NCBI RefSeq assembly: GCF_003597675.1
Contig: NZ_CP030828.1
Span: 384,001 to 448,000, forward strand
Direction of reading: 5' to 3'
Length of the DNA: 64,000 bases
DNA from: Neorhizobium sp. NCHU2750
GTDB taxonomy: Bacteria; Pseudomonadota; Alphaproteobacteria; Rhizobiales; Rhizobiaceae
Below are positions 7,814 to 19,502 of this stretch, in pieces (position 1 is the stretch's first letter; the number at the start of each line of letters is the position of its first letter). The notes under the pieces are model-generated. The model did not search any database. It was not told the DNA's origin and was given only the letters and a program-made list of their open reading frames with translations. The translations under genes were made by a program, and so were the position numbers.

Positions 7814-9457
7814 TCAACTCAAGATGTTTGCCGCTTGGGAGGTCTTGCGCCCGCTTTCGATCAACGCCCTCGTGTAATCCTCACCGGGATTGAGGAAGAT
7901 CTGTTCGGTCTCTCCCTGTTCGACGATCTCGCCGCGCTTCATGACGATCGTGCGGTCGCAAATTTGGCGTATGACGGCCAGGTTGTGCGAGATGAAGACA
8001 TAGGTGAGATTGAGCTCGGATCGCAGTTGCTGCAGGAATTCGAGTACCTGTGCCTGTACGGATATATCCAGCGCAGAAGTCGGCTCGTCGAGTACAAGTA
8101 GCCGCGGATTGAGTGCGATCGCACGGGCAATGCAGACGCGCTGCTTTTGCCCGCCGGAGAGTTCGTGCGGGTAGCGGTATTTGAATGCCTTGGGCAATTT
8201 TACGATGTCGAGCAGGGCTTCCGTACGCGCCGCGATATCTCTTCCGCTCATATTCGTCTGGATGCGCATCGGTTCACCGATGGCATCGCCAATCGTATGG
8301 CGGCCGTTCAATGCCGAATGCGGGTTCTGGAAAACGAACTGCATGTGACGACGCATCTGTCGCAGTGGTTCACCGCTCAGGCCCGAAATATTCTGGCCAT
8401 CGAAGATCACGTCGCCGGACGTAGGCTCGATCAGGCGCAGCAGCATGCGCGCAAGGGTCGACTTGCCCGATCCACTCTCGCCGACAACGCCAAAGATCTC
8501 GCCGGTCTTGACCGACAGGCTGACGCCGTTCACAGCCGTGAAGGCGCCGCCGGATTGGCTGCGATAGACTTTCTTGAGGTCGATTGCTTCCAGCAGATGG
8601 GCGGGCTTGGCTGGTTGTGTCGTTGCTGCTTCTGCGGCAACTTTCGCCGGCACGGCATCGATATCTGGCACTGCCGAGAGCAGGCGCTGCGTATAGTCGT
8701 GCTGCGGTTGGCTCAAAATGTCCTGCGTCAGGCCTTGCTCGACAATTTCCCCCTTGTACATGACGGCACAACGCTTCGCGACAGTGGCGATTGCGCCGAT
8801 GTCGTGACTGATCATGATGACGGTGAGGTTGAGCCTGTCGACCAGCGAATTGATCAGGTCGAGAACCTGGGCCTGCACTGTGACGTCAAGAGCGGTTGTC
8901 GGTTCGTCGGCGATCAGGATATCCGGCTTGCCCGCAAGCGCCATGGCGATCAGCACGCGCTGGCGCATGCCGCCGGAAAGCTGGTGCGGATATTGTGAAA
9001 ACAGCATGATCGGGTTCGGCAAGCCCACCTGATCCAGCAATTCCTCGGTGTGGGCACGCCGCGCGGCCTTGGAGGAAACGCCCTGACCTGCAGCCCTCTC
9101 ATGTGCCGCGATGACGTCCGAAATCTGTCGCCCGATCGAAAACAACGGATTCAGATAGGTCATCGGATCCTGGAAGATCATCGAAATGCGGATGCCGCGG
9201 ATCTTCCTCCAGTCCTTCTCTGACAGGGCGGTGATATCCTGTCCGTCGAAAATGATCGAGCCGTCGATGACTTTGGAATTTCTTGGTCCGATGCCTAGTA
9301 TAGACCGTACCAGCACGGTCTTGCCTGAACCGCTTTCGCCGACGATGCCGAGCGTATCGCCGCGATTGACGGTGAGGTTTATGCCCTTGAGCACATGCAC
9401 CGGCCCGTCGAACGTACCGATGTCGAGCCGATAGTCCTTGATCTCAAGCAGGGTCAT
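7814..9457 (-). CDS. Oligopeptide-type ABC transporter, fused double ATP-binding protein (DppD-DppF/GsiA type)
   Basis: 547 residues with two complete ABC domains of the peptide/nickel/opine importer family. Each half has Walker A (GESGSGKT and GESGSGKS), an ABC signature (LSGGMRQR and LSGGQKQR), Walker B (LIADEPTTALD and LVLDEPTSALD) and H-loop (MISHD and FISHN). In many operons these halves are separate DppD and DppF genes; here they are one polypeptide as in GsiA. The start overlaps the permease stop by 4 bases (ATGA). Last gene of the leftward operon headed by the AroM-family gene at 13139-13819. Substrate unknown; context suggests a cyclic amide or dipeptide-like compound. Confidence 0.9.
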   Translation of the reverse strand: MTLLEIKDYRLDIGTFDGPVHVLKGINLTVNRGDTLGIVGESGSGKTVLVRSILGIGPRNSKVIDGSIIFDGQDITALSEKDWRKIRGIRISMIFQDPMTYLNPLFSIGRQISDVIAAHERAAGQGVSSKAARRAHTEELLDQVGLPNPIMLFSQYPHQLSGGMRQRVLIAMALAGKPDILIADEPTTALDVTVQAQVLDLINSLVDRLNLTVIMISHDIGAIATVAKRCAVMYKGEIVEQGLTQDILSQPQHDYTQRLLSAVPDIDAVPAKVAAEAATTQPAKPAHLLEAIDLKKVYRSQSGGAFTAVNGVSLSVKTGEIFGVVGESGSGKSTLARMLLRLIEPTSGDVIFDGQNISGLSGEPLRQMRRHMQFVFQNPHSALNGRHTIGDAIGEPMRIQTNMSGRDIAARTEALLDIVKLPKAFKYRYPHELSGGQKQRVCIARAIALNPRLLVLDEPTSALDISVQAQVLEFLQQLRSELNLTYVFISHNLAVIRQICDRTIVMKRGEIVEQGETEQIFLNPGEDYTRALIESGRKTSQAANILS

Positions 9458-10392
9458 CGGTCACGGCTCCTTGGATCGAGAATGTCGCGCAGGCCATCAC
9501 CCAAAAGGTTGAAGCCGAGCACGGTAAGAAAGATCGCGGCGCCGGGGAAAAGCGAATACCACCACCAGTCCGGCATATAGGTTCGGGCGACCGAGATCAT
9601 CGCGCCCCATTCCGGTGCCGGCGGCTGCGCGCCGAGGCCGATGAAGCCCAGGCTGGCGGCCGACAGGATCGCCATGCCCATGTCCATGCTCATCTTGACG
9701 ATGATCGGGGACAGGCAGTTGGGCAGGATGTGATGCCACAGGATCCACGGTGTCCTGGCTCCGATCGAGCGCGCCGATTCGATGAACAGCTCTTCCTTGA
9801 TCGATAGCGTCTTGGCTTCCACCAGACGAACATAGCCCGGCCACCAGACGATGGCGAGCGCCAGAACGCAGTTGGTAATGCCGGGACCGAGTGCGGCGAC
9901 GATCGCCAGCGCCAGCGCAAGGCCCGGCACGGCAAGGAAAAGTTCGGTGAAGCGCATGATTGCGGCACGTACCCAGCCACCACGATAGCCGGCAATGATG
10001 CCGAGCGGTACACCGATCAGTGCTGCAAGCCCGGTGATGACGACGCCGATCCAGAGTGAAGTGCGTGCCCCGATAATCACCCGCGAAAAGATGTCGGCCC
10101 CCATCTCGTCGGTTCCGAACCAATAGGTAGCGTCGGGAGGCAGAAGCTTGGCCGACATGTTGATCGCACCGCTTGCCGCATCGGGATACGGCGCGATTAG
10201 CGGTCCGAAGGCGGCAAGCAGCAGGAACAGCACGACCAGTGTCAGGCCGAGCATGGAGGAGAAGCTCTTGCGGAACATGTGGGCGTAAAGTCGCCACTGC
10301 CGGATCTGGCTTTCATGCCGTTCGCGGAACGTGAGCGGCCGCGAAACTTCCGCCGGGGTATCGATCTGTGGGGTCATGGGCGAAGCCGTCAT
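9454..10392 (-). CDS. Oligopeptide-type ABC transporter permease (DppC type)
   Basis: About 312 residues with the DppC/OppC N-terminal cytoplasmic tail, a first membrane helix near residue 45, an extracytoplasmic loop (LLPPDATYWFGTDEMGADIF) characteristic of DppC proteins, and the EAA motif region (ARSIGARTPWILWHHILPN). The start at 10392 forms a TGATG overlap with the stop of the upstream permease gene, so translation is probably coupled. An open frame extends upstream to 10764, but its extra residues overlap the DppB gene and have no membrane character. Confidence 0.9.
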   Translation of the reverse strand: MTASPMTPQIDTPAEVSRPLTFRERHESQIRQWRLYAHMFRKSFSSMLGLTLVVLFLLLAAFGPLIAPYPDAASGAINMSAKLLPPDATYWFGTDEMGADIFSRVIIGARTSLWIGVVITGLAALIGVPLGIIAGYRGGWVRAAIMRFTELFLAVPGLALALAIVAALGPGITNCVLALAIVWWPGYVRLVEAKTLSIKEELFIESARSIGARTPWILWHHILPNCLSPIIVKMSMDMGMAILSAASLGFIGLGAQPPAPEWGAMISVARTYMPDWWWYSLFPGAAIFLTVLGFNLLGDGLRDILDPRSRDR

Positions 10393-11399
10393 CACGCTTT
10401 CCTGAGACGCGGGTCGATCCAGGCATAGGCAAGATCGACGAGGGTGTTGGCGACGATGAAGAAGAAACCGATCATCAGTGTCACGCCAACAACGGGCTTG
10501 AAATCGGACGATAGCGCTGAGGAGACGGCGTAGAGCCCGACGCCCGGCCAGTCGAACACGGTCTCGACCAGCACGGTCGAACCGAGCATCCAGCCGAAGC
10601 GCAGGCCGATCATTGCCAGTGTCGGCAACATGGCGTTCTTCAGTGCATAAAGCGCGACGATGCGGAAAGAGGAAATGCCATGGGCGCGTGCGGCGACGAT
10701 ATAGTCCGACTGCAGGACCTCGATCATTTCCGCACGGTTGACGCGCAAGATCGAGGCGAGGCACGGGAAGGATAGGACGATTGCCGGTAGAATGATATGC
10801 TGCAGCGAGACCCAGAAGGTAGAGAACCGGCCGGAAATCAGGCTGTCGATCAGCAGCATGCCAGTGACGGTATCCGGCGGCCGGGTCACGAGCGGAAGAC
10901 GGCCCGACACCGGCAGCCAGCCGAGATCGACGGAAAACAGCAATTGCAGGACGATGCCGAACCAGAAGGCCGGCAGCGCCACACCAGAGATCGAAAAGAT
11001 ACGTGTCATCTGGTCGAGCGGGCCGTCTTTGTAGACGGCTGACAACATTCCGAGAGGCACGCCGACGATGATGCCAAGCGCCATGGCGACGAAGACGAGT
11101 TCCAGCGTCGCCGGCGCATAACGCATCACCTCCTCCAGGACTGGCTGCGTCGAGACGATCGACGTGCCGAGATCCCCGCGAAAGAGATCGCCCATGTAGT
11201 AGACGAATTGTTCTGGCAGAGACTTGTCGAGGCCGTATTCTGTCCGGATCGTGGCGACCATATCCTCGGTGGCATTGGGGCCGGCAACAAGCCGTGCCGG
11301 ATCGCCCGGTGCGACGTTGGTAATGAGGAACGTCAGCGCTGCGATACCGATCATCGTGCCGATCAGCGTCACCAATTTGCGGAAGGCGAATGTCAGCAT
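10392..11399 (-). CDS. Oligopeptide-type ABC transporter permease (DppB type)
   Basis: 335 residues with six predicted membrane helices and the typical DppB features: an N-terminal helix ending in the NVAPGDPA motif, the GLDKSLPEQFVYYMGDLFRGDLGTS stretch (about residues 52-76), and the EAA loop (ARAHGISSFRIVALYALKN). It follows the binding-protein gene across a 97-base gap that contains an intrinsic terminator-like hairpin. It pairs with the DppC-type permease immediately downstream. Confidence 0.9.
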   Translation of the reverse strand: MLTFAFRKLVTLIGTMIGIAALTFLITNVAPGDPARLVAGPNATEDMVATIRTEYGLDKSLPEQFVYYMGDLFRGDLGTSIVSTQPVLEEVMRYAPATLELVFVAMALGIIVGVPLGMLSAVYKDGPLDQMTRIFSISGVALPAFWFGIVLQLLFSVDLGWLPVSGRLPLVTRPPDTVTGMLLIDSLISGRFSTFWVSLQHIILPAIVLSFPCLASILRVNRAEMIEVLQSDYIVAARAHGISSFRIVALYALKNAMLPTLAMIGLRFGWMLGSTVLVETVFDWPGVGLYAVSSALSSDFKPVVGVTLMIGFFFIVANTLVDLAYAWIDPRLRKA

Positions 11400-11496: not shown

Positions 11497-13089
11497 TTAT
11501 TCAGTCTTTACCCACAGCGGATAGAGATCGACTTCGCCGGTGAAGCGCACGGGGCTGAACTGGAAACCCTGCAAATAGTCACGACGGGCCCAGCGGCGCT
11601 TCTGCAGCATGCCGAACACTTCCGGTTGGTCCGCGACGATCTGCGTCTGGATATCGGCATAGAGCTTGGCGCGTTCATCCCAGTTGGACGAGGAGCGTGC
11701 CTTGTCGATCATCTCCGAGACCTGCGGGTTGTCGTAGAACATCATCGCGAAGTACTGACCCCAGCTGTTCTTGTGATACTGGTAGGCAACGGCATCCGGG
11801 TCGGTCGAAACCGGTGTGGTGTAGACCGAGGTCATGGCCGGAGAAGTATCGACTTTGGAGCCGTTGGCCACCATGTTCGGCCACTGTTCCGGCTTGATCT
11901 CGACATTGATGTTGAGCGGCTTCAGGCTGTCCAGCAGCACGAGACCGATACGGCGGGCTTCTTCGAGGCCGGCGACGTGAACATACGGCAGGGTGATGCC
12001 GCCATTGGGATAGGCGGATTTCGCCAGATATTCCTTCGCCTTGGCCAGATCCTTGCGGGGAATGCCAGGTACGTCGATATGACCCTTCATGGCATCCGGG
12101 ATCGGGCTCGTCTCAAGCGTGGCGGCGCCGTTATAGACCTGGATCAGCGCATCGTAATCCATCGCATAGGCGATCGCCTTGCGCAGGTTGATGTCGGCGG
12201 TCGGGCCCTTCTGCGTGTTGAACTTGATGCCGAAAGTGGTCATGCCCTTGTGATCTTCGATAGCAATGCCGGGCGCGCGCTTGATCTGGACATAATCGTC
12301 CGGCGTCAATCCTTCGACGATATCCGCTTCCCCGCGCTGCAGGGCAGCCTTCTGGGCTGCGGGTTCGCGAATGATCTTGTAGATGACGCCTGCGGGACGG
12401 TTGGCATCGCCCTGAGGCCAGCCCTTCCAGTAGTCCGGCACGGCATCGGCTTCATAAAGAACATTCGGCTCCCAGCGGCCGAGCTTGAACGGGCCCGAAC
12501 CTGCTTCATGGTCGGTCAGCCACTTCTGGCCGTAGTCTCCGTCCGCTTCATGTGCCTTCACCTCGGCCGGGTTGACGATATACCACCACGGCAGGAAAGA
12601 TAGGAAGGGCGTGTAGGGAGCCTTCAGGTTGAACTGCACGGTGTAATCATCGACGACGGTGATACCCTCCGGCGCCAGAAAATCCTTGAGCATCCAGGCG
12701 ACGCCCTTGTTGAGCTTAAGGCCGCGCTCGAAGGAGTAACGGACAGCCTCGGCCGTCACCGGGTCGCCATTGTGGAACTTGGCATTATTGACCAGATGGA
12801 AGGTCCAGGTCTTGCCGTCCTCGCTGGTCTCCCACTTTTCGGCGAGCCACGGCTTGATCTCGGCCGGATCGCCCTCGTACTTGACGAGACCGTCATAGAC
12901 GGCCTGCTGCATCATGCGTGTGGACCAGTCGTAGCGGATATGCGGATCGAGAACCGGGATAGCCTGCCGGCCGCCGAAGACGATGACATTGCCCTTGTCT
13001 GTGCGCTCGAAAGCGCTGGCAGGGGAAGCAAGAATCGACGATGCGAGCAGCCCCGCAATTGCAATATTCCTGATGATTTTGCCGAACAT
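11497..13089 (-). CDS. Oligopeptide-type ABC transporter substrate-binding protein
   Basis: About 530 residues of the SBP_bac_5 (DppA/OppA) family. A Sec signal peptide (KIIRNIAIAGLLASSILASPASA) is followed by the mature start FERTDKGNVIVFGG and the family core (VQFNLKAPYTPFLSFLPWW; TSPIPDAMKG; AKAKEYLAKSAYPNGG). Start at 13089, because GAGAGGGAAC lies just upstream and the signal peptide begins there; a longer frame adds 43 residues with no signal-like character. It lies 49 bases downstream of the AroM-family gene and probably shares its promoter. Confidence 0.9.
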   Translation of the reverse strand: MFGKIIRNIAIAGLLASSILASPASAFERTDKGNVIVFGGRQAIPVLDPHIRYDWSTRMMQQAVYDGLVKYEGDPAEIKPWLAEKWETSEDGKTWTFHLVNNAKFHNGDPVTAEAVRYSFERGLKLNKGVAWMLKDFLAPEGITVVDDYTVQFNLKAPYTPFLSFLPWWYIVNPAEVKAHEADGDYGQKWLTDHEAGSGPFKLGRWEPNVLYEADAVPDYWKGWPQGDANRPAGVIYKIIREPAAQKAALQRGEADIVEGLTPDDYVQIKRAPGIAIEDHKGMTTFGIKFNTQKGPTADINLRKAIAYAMDYDALIQVYNGAATLETSPIPDAMKGHIDVPGIPRKDLAKAKEYLAKSAYPNGGITLPYVHVAGLEEARRIGLVLLDSLKPLNINVEIKPEQWPNMVANGSKVDTSPAMTSVYTTPVSTDPDAVAYQYHKNSWGQYFAMMFYDNPQVSEMIDKARSSSNWDERAKLYADIQTQIVADQPEVFGMLQKRRWARRDYLQGFQFSPVRFTGEVDLYPLWVKTE

Positions 13090-13138: not shown

Positions 13139-13819
13139 TCACAGCATCTGGCGAACGACCCCGGCGACCATTCGGCGCGACAGAAGCACAGGCGCATCGA
13201 CCGAAGCACGCACCGCATCCAGCATCTCCGCCGAATAGCCCATGCAATGCATGACGATCAGGTCGCAGCCTTCCAGTTGCTTTGCCCGCGCGCCCATATC
13301 GTCGCCCGCATAGGGTGATGCCGAGACAAGGCTCGGCTTTCCAGGCAGAACGTGACGCTCTTCGAAATCCTTGACCTGCCGTTCGAGCGGCAGAATGACG
13401 CCGAGCCGGCGGGCAGATGCGGCCAGCGCCTCGACGGTCGAATCGACGATCCGTTGCGCTTCGACGACCAATGTGTTCTTCAATGGCTCGATCCGGGTGC
13501 CGGTGCAGAGCAGAACCACGATGTCGAAGCCTTCGCCATCAATCGCCTGTAAGAGGACGTTGAGCTTTTCTTCCGTGCGAGCCTTGGAGGTGACGATCTC
13601 GTTGCCGTTTTTAAGCCGGGTCGCAAAGGAATGCTCGCCGTCCCGGGCACGCATCGCATCGAGATCGGCATCATCCATACCGTCGAGAACGCCAAATTCC
13701 TGAAATACGATGCGGCCTTCGGGCTGGCCGACCATGATCTCGGCCATCATTTCGGGAACCAAGTCGACGCGGGGCGTCTGACCGATGGTTACGAAGGCGA
13801 TCTTGGATTTGGAAGGCAT
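13139..13819 (-). CDS. AroM-family protein (possible Asp/Glu/hydantoin-racemase-like fold)
   Basis: 226 residues matching the AroM family, whose biochemical role is not established. The family signature GQTPRVD is at residues 13-19. Two cysteines sit in contexts like the two catalytic cysteines of Asp/Glu/hydantoin racemases: Cys105 in VVLLCTG and Cys192 in DLIVMHCMGYS (resemblance noted by eye, inference). It heads the transporter operon, 49 bases before the binding-protein gene, and lies 63 bases downstream of the 20-bp site at 13883-13902. A paralogous AroM domain forms the sensor part of the regulator at 13993-15006, with serine at both cysteine positions. A racemase or isomerase acting on the imported compound is plausible, not shown. 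Confidence 0.85.
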   Translation of the reverse strand: MPSKSKIAFVTIGQTPRVDLVPEMMAEIMVGQPEGRIVFQEFGVLDGMDDADLDAMRARDGEHSFATRLKNGNEIVTSKARTEEKLNVLLQAIDGEGFDIVVLLCTGTRIEPLKNTLVVEAQRIVDSTVEALAASARRLGVILPLERQVKDFEERHVLPGKPSLVSASPYAGDDMGARAKQLEGCDLIVMHCMGYSAEMLDAVRASVDAPVLLSRRMVAGVVRQML

Positions 13820-13855: not shown

Positions 13856-13902
13856 AGCCTAACGCTCGGATGCGCGCCTTCACTATAGGGTAATGCCCCT
13901 AG
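13856..13902 (-). promoter_or_regulatory. Operator and activator-dependent promoter of the AroM/transporter operon
   Basis: The 20-base site CTAGGGGCA-TTA-CCCTATAG on the minus strand (13883-13902) is followed 21 bases later by TAGGCT (13856-13861), a weak -10. No -35-like hexamer lies at the proper distance, which suggests an activator. The site matches the one at 15025-15044 in 18 of 20 bases, and the 21-base spacing to TAGGYT is identical. Likely bound by the AroM-LuxR protein (inference). Confidence 0.6.
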
Positions 13903-13992: not shown

Positions 13993-15006
13993 TTATGGAT
14001 GCCCCGCTGCGACAACCATTCTGATCAGGGCATTGGATGAGGTAACTTCCATCTTTGCCATGACGTTGGAGCGATGGATTTCGACGGTTTTAGGACTGAT
14101 GCCGAGTTGGCGGGCGATGGCCTTATTGGACAAGCCTTCAGCAACCAGCGAGAGCACCTGGCGCTCTCGCGGCGTCAGGCGCTGGAGCTTTTCAGAGAAT
14201 TCGACCGGAACCCCTGGCAGAGCGACCGGGTGCGTACCATGCAGCAGCAGACGAATGGCGCTGGCCACGATGCGGCGTGCCAGTACCACGGGCTTGCCGC
14301 TCGCCTTGGCAACGGTCTGCCGGTCTGCCTCGGTGAAGCTCACCGAATTCAGCACTATGATCTCTGAATCGGCCAGATCCACGAGGGCGCTTGCAAGCAG
14401 CCTCTTGTCACCATCCGAAGCGTAGCTGGCAGTGACATTGTAGGGCGCCAGCGCCGGAATATCGAGCTCTTCGATCTGCTGTTGCAAAGGCTGTATGAGT
14501 CCGACGGACGAGCCGTGGGAGGCAAGTGAGATGACCGTCGATTCCATTGCGCGCTGGGCGTTGACGGTGGGGCAGGTGCTCTCGAAATCACGAAAGAGGC
14601 CGGTCGACAGTATGACGACCAGATCGAATTCGTTCGGCTGAAACGCTGCGGCTATGGCTGCCATACGCTCTGCGATGCGAGGCTTGGAGACGACGATGTC
14701 GCTGCCATCGACAAGCCGGGTGACGATGCTGGTCTCACCTGGGCGAACCTTGAGGTCGTTGATCTGCGCTTCAGAAAGGCCATCGAGTGCGCCGATTTCC
14801 AACGCTTCGATCGGCAGGTCGAGGTTTGTCAGCATGTCGTCGATAATGTCAGCGCGGGGCGACTGGCCGACGCTCAGGAACATCACGCGATGGGGTGGTT
14901 CGGCTGCTTCATCGACTGGCGAAGACGGGCGATGGGGGCTCTTCGGCGCGGGCAGGGGATTCAATCCTTCTGATCGTCTCGGCATGTCCGTTCTAGGCAT
15001 GCTCAT
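13993..15006 (-). CDS. AroM-domain/LuxR-type HTH fusion regulator
   Basis: 337 residues. A Pro/Arg-rich N-terminal tail (1-40) precedes an AroM-like domain (about 41-257, with GQSPRAD at 47-53) and a C-terminal LuxR/GerE HTH (about 275-335, LTPRERQVLSLVAEGLSNK then ISPKTVEIHRSNVMAKM). The AroM part aligns throughout with the stand-alone AroM protein next door, but both candidate catalytic cysteines are serine here (Ser134 in VVILSTG for Cys105; Ser221 in IIVLNSVSF for Cys192). This is what an effector-binding domain derived from an enzyme would look like. It lacks an autoinducer-binding or receiver domain. The start has no clear ribosome binding site, and ATG 15006 is only 18 bases from the shared operator; an internal start is possible. 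Confidence 0.85.
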   Translation of the reverse strand: MSMPRTDMPRRSEGLNPLPAPKSPHRPSSPVDEAAEPPHRVMFLSVGQSPRADIIDDMLTNLDLPIEALEIGALDGLSEAQINDLKVRPGETSIVTRLVDGSDIVVSKPRIAERMAAIAAAFQPNEFDLVVILSTGLFRDFESTCPTVNAQRAMESTVISLASHGSSVGLIQPLQQQIEELDIPALAPYNVTASYASDGDKRLLASALVDLADSEIIVLNSVSFTEADRQTVAKASGKPVVLARRIVASAIRLLLHGTHPVALPGVPVEFSEKLQRLTPRERQVLSLVAEGLSNKAIARQLGISPKTVEIHRSNVMAKMEVTSSNALIRMVVAAGHP

Positions 15007-15024: not shown

Positions 15025-15076
15025 CTAGGGGCAGTCCCCTATAGGCATCCTTCGTCTCACATGGCTAGGTTCTAGC
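15025..15076 (+). promoter_or_regulatory. Operator and promoter of the DUF917/hydantoinase operon
   Basis: CTAGGGGCA-GTC-CCCTATAG at 15025-15044 contains the perfect dyad TAGGGG-N4-CCCCTA. TAGGTT at 15066-15071 lies 21 bases after it and is a weak -10, matching the layout at 13856-13902. A second perfect inverted repeat, GCTAG-GTT-CTAGC (15064-15076), overlaps the -10. The operator also lies just upstream of the regulator's own start at 15006, so autoregulation is possible. Confidence 0.6.
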
Positions 15077-15095: not shown

Positions 15096-16175
15096 ATGAT
15101 CCGTGATTTCGAAGCAAGCGAGATCGATCCGCTTGCCGTTGGTGCCTGGATTCTCGGGACCGGCGGCGGCGGAAGCCCTTATCTGGCGCAGTTGAACCTG
15201 AGAAAACTCTACAAAGAGGGCAAGCGCGTAAAACTGCTCGACCCGCTGGCACTTGATGATGGCGACGCGGTTGCCGTCGTTTCCAAGATGGGGGCTCCGC
15301 TCGTCGGGCAGGAGCGTCTGGTCGATCCGGCCCATCTCGCTCGCGCCATGCAGTTGATGGAAGAATATACCGGCCGCAAGTTCCGTGCGGTGATGAGTGT
15401 CGAGATCGGCGGCGGCAACGCGCTGTCGCCATTCCTTGCTGCGGCCATGCTCGATATTCCGGTCGTCGACGCCGATGCGATGGGCCGCGCCTATCCGGAA
15501 GCGCAGATGACTAGCTTTGCTATCGGCGACCTGCCGATGTATCCGCTCACCCTGGTCGATTGCCGCGACAACGAGGCAATCGTCGCCAAGGCGGCTTCCT
15601 GGAAGTGGATGGAGCGCATCTCGCGCAAGATCTGCACCGAGGTCGGATCAACCTCGGCTACCTGCAAGGCGCCGCGCACCGGCAAGGAAGTCAAGGAATG
15701 GGGCGTGCTCCACACCGTGACCAAGGCGGTCAGCCTCGGTCGTGCGGTACTCGATGCACGCGCTGCCCATACCGACCCGATCGAAGCCGTGTTGGCCCAT
15801 GAGGGTGGCAAGGTTCTGTTCAAGGGCAAGGTTGCCGATGTCGATCGCACCACGACCGGTGGCTTCCTGCGTGGCGCGGCCCAGATTGAGGGCCTAGACG
15901 ATGATCGCGGCTCCAAGGTCGAACTCGCTTTCCAGAACGAATGGGCGGTTGCTTTCCGCGACGGCCAGCCAATTGCCATGACCCCGGACCTGATCTGCCT
16001 GCTCGACACGGTGTCGGGGGAAGCAATCGGTACGGAGACCGTGCGCTATGGTCAGCGCGTGACCGTCGTTGCTCTGCCGGCGCCGGCGGTGCTGACCAGT
16101 CCGAAGGGCCTGGAGCATGTCGGCCCGCGCGCCTTCGGTTATGACCTGGATTTCAAATCGGTGTTTGCAGCATGA
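15096..16175 (+). CDS. DUF917-family protein (S-methyl-thiohydantoin desulfurase-like)
   Basis: 359 residues with the glycine-rich family signature near the N-terminus (LGTGGGGSPYLAQL) and the conserved V-S-x-M-G-A-P (VVSKMGAPLVGQE) and E-I-G-G-x-N (SVEIGGGNALSPF) blocks. The family was long known as DUF917; to my knowledge current domain databases relate it to thiohydantoin desulfurase chemistry. It is usually encoded beside a hydantoinase/oxoprolinase, as here, where its stop overlaps the next start by 4 bases (ATGA). CGGAGG lies 5 bases upstream of the ATG. It probably works with the next gene on a five-membered cyclic imide or thio-imide; the exact substrate is unknown. Confidence 0.85.
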   Translation: MIRDFEASEIDPLAVGAWILGTGGGGSPYLAQLNLRKLYKEGKRVKLLDPLALDDGDAVAVVSKMGAPLVGQERLVDPAHLARAMQLMEEYTGRKFRAVMSVEIGGGNALSPFLAAAMLDIPVVDADAMGRAYPEAQMTSFAIGDLPMYPLTLVDCRDNEAIVAKAASWKWMERISRKICTEVGSTSATCKAPRTGKEVKEWGVLHTVTKAVSLGRAVLDARAAHTDPIEAVLAHEGGKVLFKGKVADVDRTTTGGFLRGAAQIEGLDDDRGSKVELAFQNEWAVAFRDGQPIAMTPDLICLLDTVSGEAIGTETVRYGQRVTVVALPAPAVLTSPKGLEHVGPRAFGYDLDFKSVFAA

Positions 16176-17734
16176 AGCGGATCGGAATTGACGTCGGCGG
16201 CACCAATACGGATGCCGTACTCATCGATGGCGAGAAAGTCGTCTCGGCCATCAAGTTTCCCACCACCGCGGATGTGATGCAGGGCGTCGTCAACGCCATC
16301 GGCCACGTTGTCGCATCGCAGGCGCCGGGTGCTTCCCCGATCGACGCAGTGATGATCGGCACGACGCATTTCACCAATGCTGTCGTCGAACGGGCCCGCC
16401 TCGAGCGCATCGCTGCGATCCGCATCGCCATGCCCGCCGGCGCCTCGCTGCCGCCAATGATCGACTGGCCGGATGACCTGCGCGAAAGCGTCGATCCCTT
16501 GTCCTTCATGGTCCATGGCGGCCACGAATATGACGGCCGTCCGCTGGTTCCGCTCGCTCGCGACGAGATCCGCGACGCAGCAATGAAGATCCGCGATGCC
16601 GGCATTACTTCGGTCGGTATCACCGCGCTCTTTTCGCCGTTGACTGCCGAATGCGAACTGGAAGCCGCCGAGATCGTCCGTTCGATCATCCCGGATGCAC
16701 GCATTACGCTGTCGCATACGCTCGGGCGCATCGGCCTGTTGGAGCGCGAAAATGTCACGCTGCTGAATGCGGCGCTTCAGGGGCTCGGCCGCAAGACGAT
16801 CGATGCTTTCAAGGACGCCCTCAACCAGGCCGGTGTCAATGCTCCCTTCTATCTGACGCAGAATGATGGCACCGTCGTTCTGGCAGACGTGGCTGCAGCC
16901 AATCCGGTCTACAGCTTCGCCTCCGGTCCGACCAATTCCATGCGCGGTGCGGCCTTCCTGACCGGCCTGAAGGAAGCCATGGTCATCGACGTCGGCGGCA
17001 CCACGTCGGATGTCGGCTGCCTCGTCGGCGGTTTTCCGCGCGAGGCCAATAACGTGGTCGAGGTCGGTGGTGTCCGCACCCTGTTCCGCATGCCCGACCT
17101 TCTGCCCATGGCGCTTGGCGGCGGCACGATCATCGATCCGGAAACTCGCAAGATCGGGCCGCGTTCGGTCGGATATCGCATCACCGAAAAGGCGCTCGTC
17201 TTCGGTGGTGATACGCTGACTACGACCGACGTTGCCGTCGCTGCCGGCCTCGTCGAAATCGGCGACCGTGACCGCGTAAAACATCTCGACAAGGCAATGG
17301 TCGCCGACCTCCTGAAGCGCATCGAGGCCATGGTGGAAGACGGCGTCGACCGGATGAAGACTTCGGCCGAGGGCGTCAGCCTGATAGCCGTCGGCGGCGG
17401 TGCCTTCCTTATTCCGGAAAGGCTCAAGGGTGCGAGCGAAGTGCTGCGCGTCGAACATGCCGGCGTTGCCAACGCGCTCGGTGCTGCGATGGCGCAAGTC
17501 TCCGGCGAAATCGATCAGGTCTTCTCGGGCATGTCGCGAGACAATGCGATTGCCGAGGCGGATCGTCTGGCGCGTCAGCGCGCTGTGGATGCCGGCGCCG
17601 ATCCCAAATCGGTCGTTACGCTGGATACCGAAGACATTCCGATCGCTTATCTGCCGGGTGATGCCCGTCGTGTCCGCGTTCGCGTGGTGGGCGACATCGC
17701 ATTCATGAAGGCCTCGCAAAAGCAGGCCTCGTGA
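16172..17734 (+). CDS. Hydantoinase/oxoprolinase-family protein
   Basis: 520 residues of the HyuA-like ATP-dependent ring-opening family. The N-terminus has the actin-like phosphate-binding segment (IGIDVGGTNTDAVLIDG). A second sits near residue 270 (AMVIDVGGTTSDVGCLVGG), and the adenosine-type glycine loop near 406 (LIAVGGGAFLIPERL). The length fits the short subfamily paired with DUF917, not the roughly 700-residue HyuA or the 1,200-residue 5-oxoprolinase. Translationally coupled to the DUF917 gene (ATGA). Expected to hydrolyse a lactam or imide bond at the cost of ATP. Confidence 0.87.
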   Translation: MKRIGIDVGGTNTDAVLIDGEKVVSAIKFPTTADVMQGVVNAIGHVVASQAPGASPIDAVMIGTTHFTNAVVERARLERIAAIRIAMPAGASLPPMIDWPDDLRESVDPLSFMVHGGHEYDGRPLVPLARDEIRDAAMKIRDAGITSVGITALFSPLTAECELEAAEIVRSIIPDARITLSHTLGRIGLLERENVTLLNAALQGLGRKTIDAFKDALNQAGVNAPFYLTQNDGTVVLADVAAANPVYSFASGPTNSMRGAAFLTGLKEAMVIDVGGTTSDVGCLVGGFPREANNVVEVGGVRTLFRMPDLLPMALGGGTIIDPETRKIGPRSVGYRITEKALVFGGDTLTTTDVAVAAGLVEIGDRDRVKHLDKAMVADLLKRIEAMVEDGVDRMKTSAEGVSLIAVGGGAFLIPERLKGASEVLRVEHAGVANALGAAMAQVSGEIDQVFSGMSRDNAIAEADRLARQRAVDAGADPKSVVTLDTEDIPIAYLPGDARRVRVRVVGDIAFMKASQKQAS

Positions 17735-18584: not shown

Positions 18585-19502
18585 TCACTCGTCCGAGCCT
18601 GCGGGAGGGACGGCGATATCGAGAAAGCGGCTCAAGGCGGGGGTCTCCTTCTGTTCGTTCCATACCAGCCACAGTTCCGTGTTGGCGCCAGGTTCTGCGA
18701 GTGGGCGCATGACGATCCGATGGCTCGTATATGATGCGACTTCCTTGGGTACTATGCCGTAACCGAGGCCGGCTGCTACAAGTCCGAGAATACTGCCGAT
18801 CTCGGTCACCCGCCATTTCACCTCCAGCTTGCAGCCCTTGGCCTCGGCGAGCTTTGAGACGACACTGCCAATGCCGACATTGTCGGTGTCTCGAAATCCT
18901 ATCATTGATTCCGATGCAAGCTTTTCGATCGGAATTTCAGGCCATTCGGCCAAGGGGTGATCCCCCGGCAGGATGACGACAAGCTCCTGGCGAGAATGGA
19001 GCCGATAACGCAGCGGCGGCTGGACCACCACCGGTCCTCGGACCAGGGCCGCATCGAGATCCCCCGCCTGAAGGCCGACGAGCTGTATCGCGATGCCCCC
19101 CTCGCGCAAAACGAACTCAACGCCAGGGGCGCTTTCGCGCATCGCTTTCAATTGGGCCGGAAATTCATGAGTGAACATCGATGAACCCACGTAGCCGAGA
19201 GCGATTCGTCCTGTGTCGCCTCGCGCCGTTCTTCTCACCGAATCGATGGCGCTTTGATGAAAGGCGAGAAGTTTCTCGGCTTCGGCGCGGCAGGCGTGGC
19301 CAGCCGCGGTGAGTTCTATCCCCCGCCCGTAGCGGTGGAAGAGCTTGGCCCCGAGCGCATCCTCAAGAGCTGCAATCTGTTGGCTTAGCGCAGGCTGCGC
19401 CACGCCCAATCGTTCGGCGGCACGCGCCATATGCAGGGTTTCGCACACTGTGAGAAAGACCTGAAGGCGGCGAAGGGAGACGGCTGAAAGTGAATGATCC
19501 AT
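18585..19502 (-). CDS. LysR-family transcriptional regulator of the UbiD/UbiX operon
   Basis: 305 residues with a classic LysR HTH (LQVFLTVCETLHMARAAERL, then VAQPALSQQIAALED) and effector domain. The style (LHMARAAERLGVAQPALSQQ) resembles BenM/CatM-like and AlsR-like regulators of aromatic or carboxylic acid metabolism. It is divergent from the decarboxylase gene at 19629. A dyad at 19501-19516 overlaps its own start codon, consistent with autorepression and activation of the divergent operon. The likely inducer is the decarboxylase substrate, an aromatic or unsaturated acid (inference). Confidence 0.88.
   Translation of the reverse strand: MDHSLSAVSLRRLQVFLTVCETLHMARAAERLGVAQPALSQQIAALEDALGAKLFHRYGRGIELTAAGHACRAEAEKLLAFHQSAIDSVRRTARGDTGRIALGYVGSSMFTHEFPAQLKAMRESAPGVEFVLREGGIAIQLVGLQAGDLDAALVRGPVVVQPPLRYRLHSRQELVVILPGDHPLAEWPEIPIEKLASESMIGFRDTDNVGIGSVVSKLAEAKGCKLEVKWRVTEIGSILGLVAAGLGYGIVPKEVASYTSHRIVMRPLAEPGANTELWLVWNEQKETPALSRFLDIAVPPAGSDE

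Follow-up and report, generated by a model that had tools for sequence, protein, structure and literature searches.

An AroM-LuxR fusion protein without the catalytic-type cysteines of AroM: a candidate local regulator beside DUF917 and hydantoinase genes in Neorhizobium

The stretch analyzed here, 64,000 nucleotides from Neorhizobium sp. NCHU2750 (hereafter "the window"), carries a gene for a protein that joins an AroM domain to a LuxR-type helix-turn-helix (HTH; hereafter "the fusion"), flanked by a stand-alone AroM gene with ATP-binding cassette (ABC) importer genes on one side and by DUF917 and hydantoinase A-type genes on the other (Table 1). Both halves of the fusion are matched in Pfam, PF07302 (AroM) at residues 43-252 (E 2e-40, 139 bits vs. 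a cut-off of 23.8) and PF00196 (GerE) at the C-terminus, residues 276-331 (E 1e-23, 83 bits vs. a cut-off of 23.5). This bears out the architecture read in an earlier, sequence-only annotation of this DNA (hereafter "the original prediction"), and adds the strand, minus, which that annotation lacked. The proposed alignment of the fusion with the neighboring AroM protein likewise held in BLASTP (residues 40-255 vs. 6-226, 71/226 identical or 31%, E 9e-34). Neither a receiver domain nor an autoinducer-binding domain is among the 23 Pfam families listed for the fusion at E ≤ 1, and no known LuxR effector domain was matched at its N-terminus, the AroM domain occupying this part. The start of the protein is less clear, as several close relatives (318 residues) begin ~19 residues downstream of the 337-residue call at a start codon that is unconserved in the fusion, and the conserved core sets in near residue 39.

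Table 1. Genes, domains and sites of the fusion locus, in window coordinates (ORF, open reading frame; aa, amino acids).
Feature	Position	Strand	Basis or remark
ABC ATPase, two ABC_tran stretches in a single protein	7814..9457	minus	
ABC permease with OppC_N domain	9454..10764	minus	ORF; start probably further in
ABC permease, dipeptide/oligopeptide type	10392..11399	minus	
ABC solute-binding protein, family 5	11497..13089	minus	ORF reaches 13218; start near 13089 in relatives
Stand-alone AroM with both cysteines (Cys105, Cys192)	13139..13819	minus	Pfam, alignment, model
-10-like hexamer TAGGCT, 21 bp past dyad CTAGGGGCATTACCCTATAG	13856..13861	minus	
Operator-like dyad CTAGGGGCATTACCCTATAG before AroM-transporter operon	13883..13902	minus	
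AroM-LuxR fusion regulator gene	13993..15006	minus	337 aa from first ATG; true start uncertain
GerE/LuxR-type HTH, fusion residues 272-335, nearest solved relative FixJ	14002..14193	minus	Pfam and solved-chain search
AroM (racemase-fold) domain, fusion residues 38-258	14233..14895	minus	Pfam, BLASTP, model, VIA-align
Ser221 codon, second catalytic-type Cys position (Cys192 of AroM)	14344..14346	minus	Alignments
Ser134 codon, first catalytic-type Cys position (Cys105 of AroM)	14605..14607	minus	Alignments
Operator-like dyad CTAGGGGCAGTCCCCTATAG before DUF917-hydantoinase operon, also upstream of regulator gene	15025..15044	plus	
-10-like hexamer TAGGTT, 21 bp past dyad CTAGGGGCAGTCCCCTATAG	15066..15071	plus	
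DUF917/S-Me-THD family protein, divergent from regulator	15096..16175	plus	Pfam PF06032, PF20906; below NCBIfam desulfurase cut-offs
Hydantoinase/oxoprolinase A-type protein, 520 aa	16172..17734	plus	Pfam PF05378, PF01968; solved relatives

Queried with its AroM part, the fusion returned 214 homologues, of which GerE is present in 119 of the best 120 (the exception is 218 residues long). Since, in addition, many separately sequenced genomes carry fusions, an origin by chance or mis-assembly was ruled out. In a scan of genome contigs, from which the best 80 of 529 loci were kept (all locus counts on L003-L082 rest on these), the match extended across the AroM part in 30 loci (L003-L032), and the listed match lay in or near the HTH only in the other 50 (L033-L082). 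Among 398 genomes sampled from the phylum, 14 had an AroM match and the sole fusion was the window's own; fusions were found in 9 of 385 genomes sampled from the class (window's genome included) and in 6 of 199 from the family, on the basis of AroM hits within frames of at least 318 residues. For five of these six the HTH was seen directly; one more long frame, in G094, is an AroM without HTH. All fusion hosts with an assigned class are Alphaproteobacteria, and many of the matches are metagenomic. Some relatives depart from the single intact gene: in Mesorhizobium sediminum (L028:10010-10947) the fusion gene is interrupted and read as two ORFs, through sequencing error or decay, and two clusters hold two fusions each (Sneathiella sedimenti, L030:2559-3473 and 9986-10897; L129:8387-9364 and 15813-16814), one adjoining the DUF917-hydantoinase genes and the other the AroM-importer operon. 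A further 556-residue frame (L112:1480-3150, minus strand) ends in a partial AroM domain; beyond AroM, it matches nothing in Pfam at E ≤ 0.01.

The replacement of Cys105 and Cys192 of AroM by Ser134 and Ser221 of the fusion, as originally proposed, was recovered in the BLASTP alignment and in wider alignments. These compared 104 distinct AroM domains (42 fused and 62 stand-alone), after identical copies, the two pieces of the interrupted L028 fusion and one partial match had been dropped. Cys occupies the first position in 54/62 stand-alones and 0/42 fusions (Ser in 38, Thr in 2, Met in 2), and the second in 62/62 stand-alones and 0/42 fusions (Ser in 40, Ala in 2); both cysteines are missing in all 42 distinct fusions. 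The eight stand-alones with Ser at the first position and only the second Cys kept are all E. coli-like (L083:3429-4106, L088-L091, L093-L095), and form a naturally occurring branch of stand-alone AroMs with one cysteine, perhaps with a different chemistry.

The rest of the domain is largely maintained, with 14 of the 21 positions conserved in stand-alone AroMs conserved equally in the fusions. Four conserved positions have changed (Ile12, Cys105, Pro169 and Cys192), among which Pro169 is invariant in 29/29 non-redundant AroMs and kept in 3/18 fusions. The fold predicted for the fusion's AroM domain, compared by VIA-align, is the racemase fold, and the Ser positions of the fusion and the Cys positions of AroM are predicted at equivalent spots 1-2 residues past a strand. 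By sequence, AroM gave no usable match among solved structures (the hydantoin racemase 2eq5 appears at E 0.68, with Cys105 opposite one 2eq5 cysteine), and PF01177 (Asp/Glu/hydantoin racemase) did not match the fusion (P0001) at E ≤ 1 and gave P0002 28.4 bits, below 31. We infer that the AroM domain of the fusion has lost its chemistry.

In an AroM tree built without the two cysteine columns, all fusions fall on one side of one branch (support 100/97). They are grouped (96/95) with 35 stand-alone AroMs, 34 of them from fusion-bearing loci or genomes and the 35th (L097) from a fusion-free genome; the cluster AroMs of L030 and L109 lie just outside this group on a long branch, and E. coli-type and other AroMs are more distant. 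A single fusion clade grouped with mostly same-cluster stand-alone AroMs, and lacking both cysteines throughout, fits a history in which the cluster's own AroM would have been duplicated, fused once to an HTH, and then have lost both cysteines. The duplication of an enzyme-like domain and the loss of its cysteines, both part of the original prediction, are thus well supported.

A 20-bp dyad, CTAGGGGCAKTMCCCTATAG, lies ahead of both operons flanking the regulator, each time 21 bp from a -10-like hexamer (TAGGYT). If these hexamers are -10 elements, the dyad is centered near -43, with no -35 recognized by eye, which would place it as a lux box is placed in LuxR-type activation (near -42/-43). 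This operator-like dyad common to both flanking operons supports, at the sequence level, the regulatory role proposed for the fusion. A second small inverted repeat, GCTAGGTTCTAGC (window:15064-15076), overlaps the -10-like hexamer on the DUF917 side and is largely kept in close relatives.

Across the 30 related loci, the dyad is retained at 17/20 positions or better in 22 on the AroM side and 20 on the DUF917 side, and it is followed after N21 by exactly TAGGCT in 18/30 and exactly TAGGTT in 12/30. Two Methylobacterium loci have 3-4 kb of other genes between regulator and AroM, and a 17/20 dyad remains at AroM, N21 from TAGCTT or TAGCCT, with a score of just 14 on the DUF917 side; the genes that separate regulator and AroM in L025, L026 and L031 had nothing in common by eye. 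When up to 3 mismatches are allowed, the consensus matches just the two window sites in the entire 6.35-Mb genome (reversed control, 1 match). Within the 199 family genomes, up to 2 mismatches gave four matches, all in the fusion carriers G000 and G171 with two apiece, and none in the 193 fusion-free genomes (reversed control, 7 matches in 199 genomes).

Half-site type was compared with the recognition helix in an exploratory set of 20 stretches (100 shuffles each), for which the second motif was picked after seeing L127 and L128, themselves close relatives. Helix SHR is accompanied by ATACGT-N6-ACGTAT in L127, L128 and L122 (0/100 shuffles as good), and helix SPK or SPR by ATAGGG-N6-CCCTAT in the window, L020 and L132 (0/100) and L123 (1/100); the other 13 stretches were weak or undecided. 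L135, with helix SHK, has the AGGG form (5/100). A simple rule linking helix and half-site is disfavored, because L030 (6/100) and L129 (4/100), both SPR, lean weakly to ACGT, and in L134 (SHR) neither half-site type is seen. The tendency of half-site type to track the recognition helix is a hint that the fusion itself may bind the dyad.

To describe the surroundings of the regulator, 43 fusion stretches were compared (the window, L003-L032, L122, L123 and L127-L136). DUF917 and hydantoinase A genes adjoin the fusion in 42 of them, and the 43rd (L027) ends at a contig edge; the pair is divergent from the fusion in 41/42 (with a 2-kb gap in L134) and on the same strand in L136. A stand-alone AroM lies within ~5 kb of the fusion in 36/43, is 7-8 kb off and of another AroM clade in two, and is missing from the stretch in five, and the fusion is the sole AroM match genome-wide in G014, G733 and G822. 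The window and each of the 30 loci L003-L032 also carry a dipeptide-type ABC importer. Because the DUF917-hydantoinase pair is beside the fusion in 42/43 stretches and stand-alone AroM is less regular, this pair is the regulator's constant partner, and because AroM is missing near the fusion, or from the genome, in some cases, the ligand is better tied to the pair than to AroM. The original interpretation is partly supported, as regards duplication, cysteine loss and a regulatory role; its link of the ligand to AroM shifts toward the DUF917-hydantoinase pair.

Naming the DUF917 protein an S-methyl-thiohydantoin or thiohydantoin desulfurase was not adopted (126 and 99 bits vs. NCBIfam cut-offs of 450 and 440), and a literature search on this desulfurase pathway found no paper. 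In L127 (10717-12859) and L128 (10024-12173) a tandem DUF917 pair, 61-64% identical to the window's DUF917, precedes the hydantoinase gene. Sections of PMC11055893 report AroM, DUF917 and hydantoin racemase genes as enriched in cyclodipeptide-oxidase clusters without cyclodipeptide synthase (CDPS) genes. AroM also directly follows a DUF1177 gene in a haloarchaeon (L124:7084-8663), Paenibacillus (L125:6963-8675) and Sodalis (L126:7051-8672), in clusters without HTH fusion and with, variously, peptidase, Asp/Glu racemase, OPT or ABC transporter genes nearby. Outside the conserved cluster, window:19629-21730 holds UbiD- and UbiX-type genes beside a LysR gene (441 bits with the VdcC model, whose cut-off is 650).

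From the computed architecture, descent, cysteine loss, predicted fold, gene order and shared dyad with its spacing, we infer the ligand, DNA binding, and activation rather than repression: the fusion is probably a ligand-sensing, LuxR-type one-component activator, acting locally on both operons via the dyad through a catalytically dead racemase-fold sensor. Its AroM domain would have the hydantoin/allantoin racemase fold with most of the conserved framework retained and, because both acid-base cysteines are gone, would bind a ring-shaped cyclic amide without turning it over. Candidates for this ligand are cyclic amides resembling hydantoin or diketopiperazine and their breakdown products, and its binding would alter the dimer and place the C-terminal HTH on the 20-bp dyad. 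The dyad-bound fusion would then activate the DUF917-hydantoinase and AroM-ABC importer operons, and so the import and breakdown of the ring-shaped compound would probably be under its control. More tentatively, as an extension to which we give a somewhat less than even chance, the fusions would form a monophyletic regulator family with a dead hydantoin/allantoin-type racemase sensor, usually beside a live paralogue that reads the same cyclic amide or a related one, and in which recognition helix and dyad have co-diverged across Alphaproteobacteria (AGGG vs. ACGT half-sites on the same 18-bp layout).

Several observations weigh against this activator model. On the sensor side, AroM matches the Asp/Glu racemase profile weakly (probability 27, E 7e-4), loss of the first cysteine alone is not peculiar to regulators since the E. 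coli-type AroMs (8/62) lack it too, and long branches among both fusions and stand-alones drew a warning from the tree program. The substrate class is uncertain because DUF917 scores so far under the named desulfurase models. As for the dyad, its perfect matches in the window prove nothing, the pattern being derived from these two sites, so that the informative evidence is its absence elsewhere and its conservation only; chance matches are also kept low by the rarity of CTAG words in many bacterial genomes. It is also unrecognizable or weak in L027, L029 and L031, has no match at up to 2 mismatches in the other four of the six fusion carriers of the family sample, and, among 13 distant stretches, the consensus scored better than the best of 200 shuffles in L132 and L135 only. 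A free dyad search of the 13 distant intergenic regions never rose clearly above shuffles (26 to 100 of 100 as good).

The missing sites in these four carriers and in most distant stretches would also fit dyads that serve another regulator, the fusion acting elsewhere or by protein contact with stand-alone AroM. We consider this quite improbable, as no other regulator gene of the window is shared with the 30 related loci (the LysR gene at 18585-19502 was seen in none of them), the site is absent from all fusion-free family genomes, and half-site type may track the recognition helix, if in few loci and with some opposite cases. A less distant alternative, still unlikely, retains both operons and dyads and makes the fusion a ligand-released repressor, or a repressor of its own gene: the dyad at 15025-15044 also immediately precedes the start of the regulator gene, which makes self-repression possible, and a site near -43 could obstruct polymerase, but a dyad so centered, a weak -10 at a distance of 21 bp and no -35 recognizable by eye are what LuxR/NarL-type activation would predict. 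The least probable alternative, by a little, is a bifunctional protein whose AroM domain is still an enzyme, with Ser or Thr for Cys in another chemistry. Most of the AroM framework is indeed retained, and a Cys-to-Thr change converts an epimerase into a dehydratase in another enzyme (described in part of PMC8142540), but the acid-base positions are lost in every fusion and are variable (S, T or M at the first, S or A at the second), unlike a preserved catalytic pair, and the otherwise invariant Pro169 is rarely kept.

If the activator model is true, it adds a new sensor fold for LuxR-type regulators, and the live enzyme and dead sensor of one ancestry form a pair for studying the change from enzyme to receptor. 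With a dedicated regulator and two predicted operators, the substrate of the AroM-DUF917-hydantoinase-importer module also becomes a question for reporter screens. AroM was sequenced beside aroL in a 1986 paper cited in PMC11055893 and has had no known function since; PMC11055893, of 2024, states that AroM and DUF917 proteins were without experimental characterization. Database names of the homologues are either "AroM family protein" or "protein AroM," or generic CsgD, NarL/FixJ or luxR names, none of which covers the combined class. No AroM-LuxR regulator was found among the matches listed in an open-access literature search, in line with the original remark that no described regulator class with an AroM sensor was known, and the family is apparently undescribed.

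Compared with the AroM family (PF07302), whose members are single-domain proteins of ~225 residues, the N-terminal part of the fusion is a nearly full-length AroM domain above the Pfam cut-off, but the protein adds an HTH and has neither cysteine, whereas E. coli AroM retains the second. The hydantoin and allantoin racemases of the Asp/Glu racemase superfamily (2eq5, 5lfd, 3qvj) have two catalytic cysteines (Cys79/Cys184 in KpAllR, according to sections of PMC12661438) without counterpart in the fusion. Non-CDPS cyclodipeptide oxidase clusters have AroM, DUF917 and a dipeptide-type importer in common with the window (sections of PMC11055893), but LuxR occurs 0 times in the main text of that paper. 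Among FixJ/NarL/LuxR-type regulators, FixJ is nearest to the fusion HTH in solved chains (1x3u, E 3e-16; 5xso, E 2e-14), but the fusion has AroM as sensor in place of a receiver or autoinducer-binding domain. More broadly, sensors derived from enzymes are a known kind, as are LuxR-type one-component regulators, and an enzyme-like effector domain is joined to a DNA-binding domain in MocR/PdxR, ROK repressors and BzdR, although we know of no enzyme-derived regulator with a racemase-fold sensor. The fusion likewise couples an enzyme-derived sensor to a DNA-binding domain, but with another enzyme fold and another HTH class.
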